Assembly: GCA_949419965.1 (NCBI GenBank)
Contig: CASPAC010000018.1
Span: 1-32,287, forward strand
DNA: 32,287 nt
Direction of reading: 5' to 3'
Source of the DNA: Bacteroidales bacterium
GTDB taxonomy: Bacteria > Bacteroidota > Bacteroidia > Bacteroidales > Rikenellaceae
Shown here: piece after piece, positions 271 to 32,287 of the stretch
Numbering within the stretch: position 1 is the first letter of the stretch
Layout: each line of letters opens with the position of its first letter
Made by a program: the position numbers and the translations under genes
Notes under the pieces: generated by a model
Told to the model about the DNA's origin: nothing
Database searches by the model: none
What the model saw: only the letters and a program-made list of their open reading frames with translations

Positions 271-387
271 AACCCTCCCGCGCCATTACGCCGCCAGCGG
301 ACTGCTGAATCTACACAAACCACGCTGACAAGAGCCGTAACCCTTGTCACTCCGGGTGTGAAGTTGCCGGAAGCGAAGATAGTGCAA
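271..387 (-). repeat. Repeat A, left copy
   Basis: On the minus strand this about 117-base element runs from TTGCACTATCTTCGCT through ACCCGGAGTGACAAGGG and AGATTCAGCAGTCCGCTGGC to GGGAGGGTT. It matches 23298-23413 with only a few substitutions and small insertions or deletions (CTCTTGTC versus CTCTTTGTC, TTTGTGTAG versus TTTGTAG). Those indels shift the frame between copies, which argues against a shared protein product. Its 5' end is a promoter -7 box. A truncated copy starts at 32241 and a diverged one lies at 31789-31966. Confidence 0.8.
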
Positions 388-8638: not shown

Positions 8639-8672
8639 ATCTGTTTGAATTGTCTGTGCCTGATGGCAAGTG

Positions 8673-8704
8673 CAAAGATAGTGCAAGCCGAGTGTAAAAG
8701 CAAA
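8673..8704 (-). promoter_or_regulatory. Proximal rluB promoter
   Basis: On the minus strand TTTG (8704-8701) is separated by exactly 20 bases from TATCTTTG (8680-8673), a perfect Bacteroidota sigma-factor consensus. The predicted leader to the ATG at 8638 is about 28 bases. Confidence 0.8.
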
Positions 8705-8836
8705 CTTGTTTGCATTTTACCGAGGCGCAGCCTATGTTCTGTAAAGATAGTGCAAGCCGAGTGTAAAAGCAAACTTGTTTGCATTTTACCGAGGCGCAGC
8801 CTATGTTCTGGAAAGATAGTGCAAGCCGAGTGAAAA
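8674..8836 (-). repeat. 69-bp tandem repeat, about 2.4 copies
   Basis: AAAGATAGTGCAAGCCGAGT begins units at 8674, 8743 and 8812. The first two full 69-bp units differ only at the unit junction, and the third is cut off after about 25 bases. Each full unit contains the palindrome GCAAACTTGTTTGC and, on the minus strand, a TTTG box that pairs with the next TATCTTT box. The near-perfect identity suggests recent duplication. Confidence 0.9.
8742..8773 (-). promoter_or_regulatory. Second rluB promoter copy
   Basis: On the minus strand TTTG (8773-8770), 20 bases, then TATCTTTA (8749-8742). It lies 69 bases upstream of the proximal promoter as part of the tandem repeat. A third -7 box (TATCTTTC, 8818-8811) has only TTCG at the -33 position and is probably weak. 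Confidence 0.6.
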
Positions 8837-9010
8837 GCCGAACCCCGGCCTGCCCTGCCGGAACCCGTCTTATCCGGCAAAATACAAGGCGTGACCAAAG
8901 GTGCCGCGCACGCAACATTCGCGAAAACAGTTTTGCGGCGACAAATAAGCCGTATGGAGAACCGAGCAGGGAAACGGACGGAGAACCGGCACGACCTGCC
9001 AAGAAACGAC

Positions 9011-23290: not shown

Positions 23291-23311
23291 TCCCGCTTTG
23301 CACTATCTTCG
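23281..23311 (+). promoter_or_regulatory. Promoter entering right copy of repeat A
   Basis: TTTG (23281-23284), 19 bases, TATCTTCG (23304-23311). The -33 box falls within the U-tract of the preceding terminator. It would transcribe repeat A, B and possibly the fragment at 24190. Confidence 0.5.
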
Positions 23312-23413
23312 CTCCCGGCAACTTCACACCCGGAGTGACAAGGGTTACGGCTCTTTGTCAGTGTGGTTTGTAGATTCAGCAGTCCGCTGGCAGCGTAATG
23401 GCGCGGGAGGGTT
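23298..23413 (+). repeat. Repeat A, right copy
   Basis: Matches 271-387 (opposite strand) over about 116 bases with few differences. The shared parts are TTGCACTATCTTCGCT, CCGGCAACTTCACACCCGGA, GTGACAAGGGTTACGGCTCT, AGATTCAGCAGTCCGCTGGC and GCGTAATGGCGCGGGAGGGT. Identity stops abruptly after GGGTT in both copies, giving a defined boundary. Confidence 0.85.
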
Positions 23414-23499
23414 GATAAGAAATAGTTGTTTGGGTAATTCACGGCGTCGAATGAACCGCAGCCGAGTCCGGTTTTGACAGAGGTACGGGAGGTGTTCTC

Positions 23500-23578
23500 G
23501 TGCCGAAGCCCGCGGGGCGAGCCCCGTTAAGAACGGGGATTTGTAAATTCTGCGAGCCTCCGCAGGGCGGGGCTTCGG
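23500..23578 (+). repeat. Repeat B, right copy
   Basis: A 79-base palindromic element starting GTGCCGAAGCC and ending GGGCTTCGG. Relative to the left-edge copy it has an extra segment of about 29 bases that includes its own hairpin (CCCCGTTAAGAACGGGG). It could be a MITE-like or REP-like unit. No target duplication is obvious. Confidence 0.65.
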
Positions 23579-23710
23579 CTCGCCCGGCTGAAGCCGGATT
23601 GTAGTTCTACAAACCGCAGCCGCCCGAGCATCTTTTCTCTTTACCTACTCGCGTTGCCGCCAGTTGCATATTCCAGTCTGCTGCGGAGTTTGCGAACAAT
23701 TCAGTAGTTT

Positions 23711-24149
23711 GTCATTCTGAGGAGCAGAGCGACGAAGAATCTGTATGCTGACGATACAGATGTTTGACTGCACTTCGTTTGTCGTTCACTTCTTTGCAAA
23801 GAGCCGCTGCAACCGTCATGTTGAGCGCAGCGAAACATCTGTAACCTTGCCCAGAATAGATTCTTGACTGCACTTCGTTTGTCTCTCTCCTCCTTGCTCG
23901 GCATAGTCCGCAAGCGGCCTCTGCACTCGCTGCGTTCGTCGATCCGCTCCGCTCAGAATGACAATTATGGCAAGCATGCCCCACATTGCGGCTATTTCTC
24001 TGGTGCGGAAGAGCCGATGCCAAGGTTTCAACCCTTGCGCCCGGGGCCGGCTCGCGCTGAAAGCGCGACCCCCGCAGCCGGCCCGGGCGAGCACACGAAG
24101 AATGAATATTGCTGATTAATAGATTCTTCGGCTTCGCCTCAGAATGACG
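23711..24149. repeat. Cluster of REP-like elements
   Basis: Several copies of a short motif in both orientations: CATTCTGAGGAGCAGAGCGA then CGAAGAATCT (23711-23741), CCGCTCCGCTCAGAATGAC (about 23943-23961) and AGATTCTTCGGCTTCGCCTC then AGAATGAC (24122-24149). A second motif, TTGACTGCACTTCGTTTGTC, occurs at 23764-23783 and 23865-23884. Such units are widespread intergenic repeats in this lineage. Confidence 0.6.
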
Positions 24150-24189
24150 AACTGCTTCTTAATTGTGCATTGTGAATTTTAAATTGTGA

Positions 24190-24579
24190 ATTCTGAATTG
24201 TTTCCCTCTCCGCCGCATTCCATTCAGCGATTGCTACACAACGCCTGCTGCGGGCTACCGCAATTACACGGTGGGAGCCTTGACGAGCGTCAGTGCGGTC
24301 GGCCGTTGTTGGGGGTCGTCGTCGTTCTCGACAGGCAGCTACTTTGCGGCCAGCCTCCACGGAACTGCCACCGAAATCAGTCCGGTACATCAAGGCTACC
24401 GCGCACACGCTTTCTCCGTGCGCTGCGTCCAAGCATCTGCAAAAGTTGCCCTTTTTACCTGCCGCACTCACCGGACATCGTCTCCAATAACCGGAGATGA
24501 AGTCCGGCGGCCGGCGCCACCGAAAATAACGATGACCTCAACAGCATCGGCCGGAAACCGCAAAAAGAGCCACCGATAA
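24190..24579 (+). pseudogene. Orphan C-terminal fragment of a lectin-fold (FISUMP/DGR-target-like) domain, copy 1
   Basis: The open frame has no credible start and begins right after a stop at 24187. It encodes SDCYTTPAAGYRNYTVGA, then GRCWGSSSF and AFSVRCVQAS. The PAAGYR...G.L..V..G...W.SSS...VRCVQ pattern is typical of the C-type-lectin-like C-terminal domain in FISUMP proteins and in targets of diversity-generating retroelements. After RCVQAS it continues without family resemblance to a stop at 24579. Flanks at 24242-24261 and 24418-24440 are identical to those of the copy near 31345. It lacks the N-terminal parts of such proteins, so I call it a fragment; a silent donor cassette is another reading. 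Confidence 0.6.
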
Positions 24580-31376: not shown

Positions 31377-31791
31377 AAGCGGAGCCTGCGGACCCGCGGT
31401 CATTGTCCGGAAACAGGAAAGCGGCCGTCGCAGATGCTTGGACGCAGCGCACGGCAAGGGCGTAGGACCGATCCGTATAGTGCACAGGCAGCACGTCGCT
31501 CGCCGTGAGACGGAAACGACCCCCGTTAAAAGAACCCGCGCCCCAGGACGACGAGCACCAGCTGTAGCCATTCTCGCCGACGGCAAGCAAGCCTCCCGTC
31601 ACATTGTCGCGGTAGCCCGCAGCAGGCGCTATCTGGCAATCGCTCAAGAGGATGCTGCGGAGAGTTGGGCGGGGAATCAGCCTCAGGGCCCGACCGCTTC
31701 CGGCTCCACAGCAAACGAATTTGCAACTGACGGCCTGCGAATTTTCTGCGGAACGGAACCGGAAATTGCTCCCGAGTTGCGGCCCCGCATC
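31345..31791 (-). pseudogene. Orphan C-terminal fragment of a lectin-fold (FISUMP/DGR-target-like) domain, copy 2
   Basis: A stop-to-stop frame with no ATG of its own. The lectin part encodes SDCQIAPAAGYRDNVTGG, then WCSSSWGAGSF and ALAVRCVQAS. It has the same motif order as the fragment at 24190, and the 52-residue core is exactly as long and aligns without gaps, though only 17 residues match. The flanking bases at 31609-31628 and 31430-31452 are identical to the other copy. The frame then runs 32 bases into the 3' end of the response regulator gene before stopping, showing it has lost its natural end. A consensus promoter lies upstream at 31959-31990. It could be a decayed gene tail or a cassette. 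Confidence 0.6.
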
Positions 31792-31966
31792 TCACACCGC
31801 CAGCGGATTGCTGAATCTGCCGACCGCACTGACAACACGTTTTCGGCAAGCCGGGTCAGCATCGAACCTGCCTGAACGCTGCCGAAGCGAAAAAACGTGC
31901 TTGATGAGGAACCTTGGTCCCTGTCATTCCGGGTCATCGGCCGCTCTTTATCCGTTCGCAAAGATA
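31789..31966 (-). repeat. Diverged copy of repeat A
   Basis: On the minus strand it keeps the order TTATCTTTGCG, ACCCGGAATGACAGGGA, TTGTCAGTGCGGT and AGATTCAGCAATCCGCTGGC, matching the parts of repeat A but with an extra segment of about 90 bases in the middle. Here the repeat directly precedes a lectin-like fragment on the same strand. Confidence 0.55.
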
Positions 31967-32030: not shown

Positions 32031-32265
32031 CAGAGTCGCTCGCTTTCGCGGGCCGCGACCTGTTTTTTCCGATTACCAGCTTTCCAGCGGCTTTTTTACC
32101 TGCCATTTTTGGCAAGACGAGGGCTTTTTGGGTGGTGTTTTTTAAGGGTAGCTTTGAGGGCCGGAGCTTGCAACGATTTCGGGACAACTCACTATTTAGC
32201 GCCCCTCCCTGGGTGCGCTTCAATGAATCTGTTTTTTGTTTTATCTTCGCTCCCGGCAACTTCAC
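32026..32265 (-). CDS. Doubtful small basic protein
   Basis: An open frame of 79 codons whose last part is strongly basic and ordered-looking (KNTTQKALVLPKMAGKKAAG, then LVIGKNRSRPAKASDSE). A shorter start at 32106 would give 26 residues. The 5' end lies inside repeat A, where the first residues (MKLPGAKI) simply translate the repeat, so the full frame is unlikely to be a natural gene. I do not recognise the family. It could be the tail of a decayed gene. Confidence 0.15.
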   Translation of the reverse strand: MKLPGAKIKQKTDSLKRTQGGALNSELSRNRCKLRPSKLPLKNTTQKALVLPKMAGKKAAGKLVIGKNRSRPAKASDSE

Positions 32266-32287
32266 ACCCGGAGTGACAGGGGCTACG
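32241..32287 (+). repeat. Repeat A, third copy (cut by window edge)
   Basis: TTATCTTCGCTCCCGGCAAC continues as TTCACACCCGGAGTGACAGG and on to the window edge. It matches 23303-23349 almost exactly, in the same orientation. The -7 box TATCTTCG is kept but no TTTG is seen at -33. Confidence 0.8.

Follow-up and report, generated by a model that had tools for sequence, protein, structure and literature searches.

Two intergenic lectin-like cassettes of a Bacteroidales contig as predicted members of a dispersed template library of a diversity-generating retroelement

Contig CASPAC010000018.1 carries two lectin-like stretches that share the same ends around different cores, which raises the question of what such paired stretches are and how they came to differ. 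The window analyzed here is this whole contig (32,287 nt); the cassette counts, machinery, and VR tests reported below were taken from genomes of relatives. The sequence comparisons identify both stretches as predicted members of a dispersed template library of a diversity-generating retroelement (DGR). Their positions are as follows.

24242 to 24440, plus strand: template cassette 1 (DGR-type), with left flank 24242-24261, core 24262-24417, and right flank 24418-24440.
31430 to 31628, minus strand: template cassette 2 (DGR-type), with left flank 31628-31609, core 31608-31453, and right flank 31452-31430.

The original prediction described identical 20-base left and 23-base right flanks around exactly 156 bases, and this geometry was confirmed at both sites; the common left flank is CGCCTGCTGCGGGCTACCGC, and the length of each cassette, flanks included, is 199 bases. 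A recount by hand gave the same identity between the core translations, 17 of 52 residues. The in-frame translation of both cassettes is PAAGYR...VRCVQ (PAAGYR...SVRCVQ for cassette 1). Both sit between called genes, with a DUF4861 gene and yidC as the neighbors of cassette 1 and a response-regulator gene adjoining cassette 2. Nothing was found by an Rfam search of the window or by a Pfam search of the two window ORFs that cover the cassettes. The two copies are intergenic, have recurrent leader motifs upstream (see below), and do not look like decayed gene pieces. The earlier term "lectin-like fragments" holds for the arrangement of flanks and core; in place of decayed pieces of larger genes, there are complete stand-alone cassettes, each with a leader. 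Elsewhere, the window contains tandem 69-base repeats (8671-8843; two copies that are 99% identical and a partial third) with GCAAAGATAGTGCAA or a variant of it.

The flanks were searched for in the nearest genome, that of an Alistipes relative (G001; 2.2 Mb, 99% complete), which contains 86% of the window's sampled 31-letter words. The left flank was found at 81 places (≤3 mismatches) compared with 1 for the reversed pattern, and the right-flank 14-mer GTGCGCTGCGTCCA had 89 exact matches and none with one mismatch (1 for the reversed pattern); both counts greatly exceed chance. A right end was present at the proper spacing for 80 of the 81 left-flank places, the sole exception being a place with 3 mismatches. 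The 89 right ends correspond to one VR and 88 cassettes. Fourteen of these cassettes form a tandem array (C1:57.3-62.9 kb), and 74 are dispersed over both strands of several contigs, 70 of them outside genes called by a codon-usage script and 4 inside; two of the 74 are near-identical inverted copies on a 3.3-kb contig (C14) that may be an assembly effect. A whole-genome search had been proposed as a check; applied to G001, it returned many copies with conserved ends, variable cores, and one intact target gene; the opposite outcome, flanks confined to two places or the lack of an intact parent gene, is not what G001 contains (88 cassettes, with the target gene present).

The cassettes are accompanied by recurrent elements, which lie in the window at these positions.

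23297 to 23355, plus strand: leader start of cassette unit 1, a repeat common to other units, with CACACCCGGAGTGACA at 23325-23340.
23372 to 23390, plus strand: leader motif AGATTCAGCAGTCCGCTGG of unit 1, close to AGATTCAGCAATCCGCTGG.
24208 to 24233, plus strand: conserved 5' element CTCCGCCGCATTCC..CAGCGATTG immediately before template 1, from motif recurrence.
24452 to 24456, plus strand: T-run behind cassette 1, a possible terminator, from T-run statistics.
31800 to 31818, minus strand: leader motif AGATTCAGCAATCCGCTGG of unit 2, from a motif search.
294 to 360, minus strand: leader of another unit, directed outward past the left end of the window (within 1-406), with start repeat 360-345 and motif 312-294.
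32235 to 32287, plus strand: leader start of a further unit leaving the right end; the next G001 cassette is C3:12946 (plus strand).

Of 76 cassettes (the 74 dispersed ones of G001 and the 2 in the window), 34 have the 16-mer CACACCCGGAGTGACA (≤3 mismatches) in the 1.6 kb before them. A leader motif near AGATTCAGCAATCCGCTGG was found at 87 places in G001 (≤3 mismatches) versus 0 for a reversed control, and 79 of these 87 places are followed within 1.8 kb by a cassette on the same strand; a shared leader thus precedes most of the dispersed cassettes. The GCGATTG of the 5' element is exact in 61 of the 74 dispersed cassettes and in all 14 array cassettes. On the other side, a T-run of at least 4 occurs at +16 to +50 behind 39 of the 74 dispersed cassettes, as opposed to 17 and 16 of 74 in the controls. 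For 48 of the 74 dispersed cassettes, gene calling gave an upstream gene; it is co-directional with the cassette in 42 of the 48, at a median distance of ∼775 bases. The Bacteroidota promoter box has the consensus TAnnTTTG, and this box was absent from up to 300 bases upstream of all 74 dispersed cassettes. Both read-through and a promoter at the leader start are possible sources of transcription of the dispersed units.

The G001 leader of the unit that matches window 23297-24440 is split across two contig ends, L200 (C2:1-5500) and L201 (C3:1-5000); the tyrosine recombinase-like gene at one of these ends (L200:1509-2492) would fit the insertion of a mobile element into this leader. In addition, the leader modules just before cassette 1 differ between the window and G001, although the cassette itself differs at 2 bases.

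A reverse transcriptase (RT) with a template repeat (TR), which the original prediction suggested looking for, was found in G001 beside the 14-cassette array. The order on one strand is a fimbrial adhesin gene ending in the VR, a 494-aa ORF, avd, the tandem array of 14 TRs, and the RT gene. The RT, 397 aa in length, adjoins the array; it matches PF00078 (60 bits over a cut-off of 29.6) and phrog_1423 "Reverse transcriptase" (E 3e-93), and its closest PDB entry by sequence is 8ub7 (E 1e-40), which we take to be the Bordetella phage DGR RT. Its sequence contains IGNLTSQ, which fits the DGR RT motif. On the opposite side of the array, the 136-aa Avd matches phrog_3206 "Avd protein of DGR" (E 1.4e-20), as well as NF033474 (E 1.2e-14) and PF22296 (E 1.4e-9), both under curated cut-offs. 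The 494-aa ORF (L064:13695-15179, minus strand) had no match in Pfam (E up to 0.01) or NCBIfam (E up to 0.1). A second G001 RT (L066:4751-6571, minus strand) was considered as part of the system and rejected, as it resembles group II intron RTs (288.9 bits, slightly short of the cut-off of 300).

The target, beyond the 494-aa ORF, is a 792-aa open frame with fimbrillin domains, a feature of type V fimbrial proteins, and the C terminus PAAGYR...SVRCVQEF. Its N-terminal part is lipoprotein-like by our own reading, and its C-terminal part scores 20.5 bits against the C-type-lectin/FISUMP family TIGR02145, below the cut-off of 41.65. The model of the full target had a mean pLDDT of 73.5, and the C-terminal piece modeled alone had a pLDDT of 31; the Foldseek and VIA matches listed for the target model were fimbrial or unrelated, with no C-type-lectin chain among them, which is uninformative either way. 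The VR and TR of a DGR differ at their 3' ends (IMH versus IMH*). Here, the VR and the cassettes diverge just after GTGCGCTGCGTCCA: the 3' end of the VR is GTCCAAGAATTC, and that of 83 of the 88 cassettes is GTCCAGCATC or GTCCAAGCATC, the other 5 having other ends or being incompletely read by the rule. The right end of the VR, AGAATTC, is present in 0 of the 88 cassettes.

The relation of VRs to templates was analyzed at the DNA level in the close RT clade (≥81% identity), which has 9 genomes and a usable VR in 4 of them (G001 and the Alistipes genomes G142, G013, and G144); the VR was unusable in G141 (chimeric assembly), G021 (Ns), G165 (target off the contig), and G016 and G140 (no target match). 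When the G001 VR was compared with the 88 cassettes, the best match was C7:97308, a dispersed cassette on a contig other than that of the VR, with 7 mismatches in 188 nt (56 for the next best), and 7 of 7 mismatches were at one of the 35 adenines in this template. For the G142 VR, the best of 19 retrieved G142 cassettes was also dispersed (L160), with 22 of 23 mismatches at A and the other at the last base. The best of 19 retrieved G013 cassettes for the G013 VR was the dispersed L147, with 17 of 22 mismatches at A; the 5 non-A differences all lie in the first 45 nt, and 3 non-A differences remain even with a mosaic of two templates. The G144 VR, truncated to 180 nt at the edge of its contig, was compared with 4 retrieved cassettes of G144 and 2 of G165, and it traces to an array cassette on the same G144 contig as the RT, with 12 of 12 differences at A (34 differences for the next best). 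Of the four VRs compared with a library at the DNA level, three (G001, G013, and G142) thus have a dispersed cassette as their best template. In the sister-genus genome G182, one TR and one VR were found, with 15 of 15 differences at A, which is the ordinary form of a DGR. The VR of Rikenella microfusus (G222) did not fit the one other copy with which it was compared (69 mismatches, 14 at A).

In the metagenome assembly G141, the target frame runs into an array cassette; the target gene and array cassettes are joined in two chimeric ways (L124 and L212), and part of the array is repeated. These chimeric joins indicate that template libraries can mislead short-read assemblies.

The VR comparisons also bear on RecA-type gene conversion, by which silent cassettes would recombine into the expressed adhesin gene through the shared flanks, without an RT. 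Silent in-frame copies with invariant ends and one expressed gene are what such conversion would use; there are also mosaic pairs (of the 13 differences between C4:167200 and C9:8856, 12 are confined to the first 48 of 165 core bases), and 5 of the 22 mismatches of the G013 VR lie outside template adenines. However, antigenic variation by gene conversion is marked by differences without base specificity, and here the differences between VR and template fall on template adenines (7/7, 22/23, 17/22, 12/12, and 15/15), a bias that conversion does not predict, and an RT and Avd are found next to the array. Because of this adenine bias, plain gene conversion through the flanks, one of the two processes that had originally been suggested, is disfavored, and we regard it as very unlikely to be the source of VR diversity. 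Conversion among cassettes and leaders may still occur.

As an independent comparison, 53 homologs of the target protein were analyzed; a VR was found by pattern in 18 of these and in none of the other 35. When these 18 VRs were compared with 90 cassettes (88 from G001 and 2 from the window), 5 were within 9 residues of one cassette, and none of the 90 was a close template for the other 13. The P0001 and P0005 VRs are closest to array cassette C1:62247 (9 and 7 changes, respectively), the P0003 VR to array cassette C1:58100 (9 changes), and the P0004 VR to dispersed cassette C3:116564 (1 change). For these four VRs, 26 of 26 changed residues need changes at template A only, compared with 20-26% for the other 87 cassettes. 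The fifth, the P0002 VR from a relative, resembles window cassette 2 and its G001 copy (58 of 63 residues, with 1 of 5 changes explained by adenines). At three sites, Asn or Gln is found in this VR but not in window cassette 2, suggesting that the template of that strain is perhaps a relative of cassette 2. Among the VRs compared, none was an exact adenine-only derivative of either window cassette. Based on the DNA- and protein-level matches, use as a template is supported for 4 of the 88 G001 cassettes. P0006 has a VR that is cut short and has a shifted-frame end (VFPCAASK), like the shifted end of the sole off-frame cassette, C2:488655.

Based on these comparisons, we consider it highly probable that the window fragments are TRs of a DGR with its machinery elsewhere on the chromosome, and that the library of ∼88 templates serves one adhesin VR. 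The original prediction had raised the possibility that dispersed cassettes serve as a library for a lectin gene expressed from another locus, and this is borne out in G001 by the 88 cassettes, one target, and an RT beside the array. The anatomy of the locus, the template-VR matches, the placement of differences on template adenines, and the keeping of frame in the templates (see below) are each seen in the sequences themselves. In the proposed mechanism, a TR would be transcribed from any unit, array or dispersed, and RT and Avd would then make a cDNA of it in which errors fall at the adenines of the template, so that use of the dispersed templates would be in trans and dependent on RT. The cDNA would replace the VR through the shared ends, the PAAGYR start and the GTGCGCTGCGTCCA end. 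The adhesin tip would in this way be rechosen from ∼88 premade lectin scaffolds and then mutated at adenines. We infer that the window's own strain has the same activity.

If the cassettes are templates, their coding content would matter only through the VR, and this content was examined in the 88 G001 cassettes. These cassettes have no in-frame stops, compared with 128 and 60 stops in the two remaining sense frames, and the cassette length is a multiple of 3 in 87 of 88. This open frame was not built in by the search because the cassettes were found by DNA patterns. Among the 62 cassettes with a 156-base core, Gly11 and Arg53 are each present in 62 of 62; at Arg53, codon positions 1 and 2 are invariant, and the pairwise difference at position 3 is 0.67. 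By these measures, the noncoding templates visibly evolve under what appears to be protein-level selection, which would be sensible only if their content were expressed somewhere, in this case via the VR. The original prediction had used ordinary decay, acting on flanks and cores alike, as its frame of comparison, and this frame does not apply to reading frames that are intact and apparently selected. Decayed gene fragments were rejected as a description of the cassettes (no in-frame stops in 88, ends intact). Cassettes as genes of their own are disfavored as well, since an in-frame ATG runs into only 25 of the 88 and only 4 of the 74 dispersed ones are in a called gene.

The same data bear on whether the dispersed cassettes are relics, that is, dead insertions of old cDNA, so that the array near the RT alone would supply templates. 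Such relics could explain the low number of AAY codons in dispersed cassettes that end in GTCCAAGCATC (mean of 2.6 versus 7.6 in the array), the promoter box not found upstream of dispersed cassettes, and the tracing of the P0001, P0003, P0005, and G144 VRs to array cassettes. Against this, dead insertions would not be expected to lack stops, keep frame in 87 of 88 cases, and have near-saturated third positions at invariant residues, and dispersed cassettes are the best template for 3 of the 4 VRs compared at the DNA level (G001, G013, and G142) and fit the P0004 VR with one change (C3:116564). We therefore hold the relic explanation to be highly improbable.

The window's two sites were also compared with their counterparts in relatives. 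The window cores differ from those of G001 by 2 and 0 bases (both C/T), which lends no support to the earlier suggestion that cores are exchanged or hypermutated in place. In G141, where the DNA flanking site 1 is ∼88% identical, a homologous cassette differs at 46 of 189 sites, 26 of them without A on either side, and keeps its frame; no cassette was found at G141 site 2. The response-regulator gene next to cassette 2 adjoins a different cassette in G016, and a search of the stretches retrieved around the genes of the two sites from G013, G142, and G144 gave no cassette. From these site comparisons, we conclude that cassette sites are gained and lost. Within a site, the cores seem to diverge through ordinary substitution, which would explain the third-position differences between the window copies. 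It had been argued correctly that adenine mutagenesis of one template is insufficient for the difference between cassettes 1 and 2, because these are two different templates. Adenine mutagenesis between templates as a general source of diversity was rejected, as it is unsupported at the window's sites and supported once (C1:61032 to C1:60611).

In this one case, array cassettes C1:60611 and C1:61032 differ at 20 core sites, of which 15 are A in 61032 and none is A in 60611. This pattern has the signature of a template overwritten by mutagenized cDNA, suggesting that templates can be written back; as one clear instance, it gives template write-back thin support. In addition, the mean number of AAY codons per core is 7.6 in the array (14 cassettes), 5.0 in dispersed cassettes ending in GTCCAGCATC (30), and 2.6 in those ending in GTCCAAGCATC (41), with 3 further dispersed cassettes unclassed. 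Alongside this drop in AAY codons, the right end changes by one base, a pattern that resembles a division of the templates into mutable and frozen classes. A tentative extension, which we think somewhat less likely to be right than wrong, is that the system is an evolving heritable repertoire, in which a mutable A-rich array beside the RT is combined with an archive of dispersed A-poor "frozen" templates and winning variants are written back by template-to-template or VR-to-template retrohoming. If true, the system would store past binding solutions for recall, a bacterial analog of a germline gene-segment library plus hypermutation.

That the cassettes are instead recipients, extra VRs in small expressed lectin ORFs that are diversified by the DGR, is also highly improbable: small ORFs do lie over both window copies, 4 of the 74 dispersed cassettes are within a called gene, and there is the one template-to-template overwrite (15 of 20 core sites at donor A), but an in-frame ATG leads into only 25 of 88 cassettes, the VR right end is in none of them, the window and G001 copies are nearly identical, and over half of the differences from the G141 counterpart of cassette 1 (26 of 46) have no A on either side.

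Relatives of the RT (E ≤ 1e-40) are present in 45 of 268 genomes of the family, and in the nearest clade, the RT is accompanied by cassette libraries. Profile matches, VR included, numbered 22 in G013, 49 in G016, and 20 in G142, and G141 had 70 left-end matches versus 6 for the control. Genomes of the same genus without such an RT (G002, G006, G014, and G019) had 0 to 3 profile matches, and two genomes with a more distant RT (G130 and G182) had 2 each, with 0 in a pattern search of G130. The flank sequence is not the same in every species: CTTCGGGCTACCGC is the form of 20 of the 24 matches in G016. In other genera, there were 97 (G193), 122 (G225), 21 (G253), and 16 (G265) profile matches, and pattern counts were 44 in G193, 4 in G225, 2 in G222, and 0 in the retrieved parts of G253 and G265. 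The 44 G193 cassettes (L203 and L204), found by an open-frame pattern, occupy ∼22 kb beside a DGR-like RT and are often ∼210 bases apart; because of these, the template expansion is not confined to the window's species.

By its parts, the system is a predicted DGR, well supported by these comparisons; it is set apart by the number and placement of templates, with a predicted choice of template before adenine mutation. As a rule, known DGRs sample the adenine positions of a single scaffold; ∼88 selected scaffolds would multiply this sampling by combinatorial choice. One surface adhesin of a gut bacterium would thereby combine random mutation with a stock of binding tips prepared in advance. This suggests that DGR surveys that seek one template near the RT undercount DGR capacity.

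DGRs of the Bordetella phage BPP-1 type consist of an RT, Avd, a TR, and a VR at the C-terminal end of the target, with adenine-specific differences between TR and VR. The system described here is like these in each of these features and unlike them in having ∼88 non-identical templates instead of one, most of them remote from the RT, and scaffold changes besides those at adenine positions. Antigenic variation of the vls and pilS type uses a silent cassette library that feeds one expressed gene. Silent in-frame copies feeding one expressed surface gene are common to both, whereas adenine-directed differences, an RT, and copies dispersed over the chromosome set the present system apart. In a literature search, no template library feeding one VR was found in the portions of text available, and an earlier description may exist. 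Bacteroides DGRs diversify tip pilins of type V pili (Macadangdang et al., cited in PMC12632263), and like these, the system has a fimbrial target (fimbrillin fold) in Bacteroidales; the available text of PMC12632263 makes no mention of a template library for the pilus-tip DGRs. DGRs with more than one TR are a further likeness: as far as the accessible parts of these sources go, the largest case in a survey has 6 TRs with few A-to-N changes (PMC6642488), "several" TRs are given for two phages (PMC12386605), and no dispersed library feeds one VR in either. In Thiohalocapsa PB-PSB1, according to the part of PMC10907252 available, DGR components act in trans, with one TR serving targets at several loci; diversification of a VR from a remote TR is alike in the two systems, and the arrangement is reversed, with one TR and many targets there and many predicted TRs and one target here.
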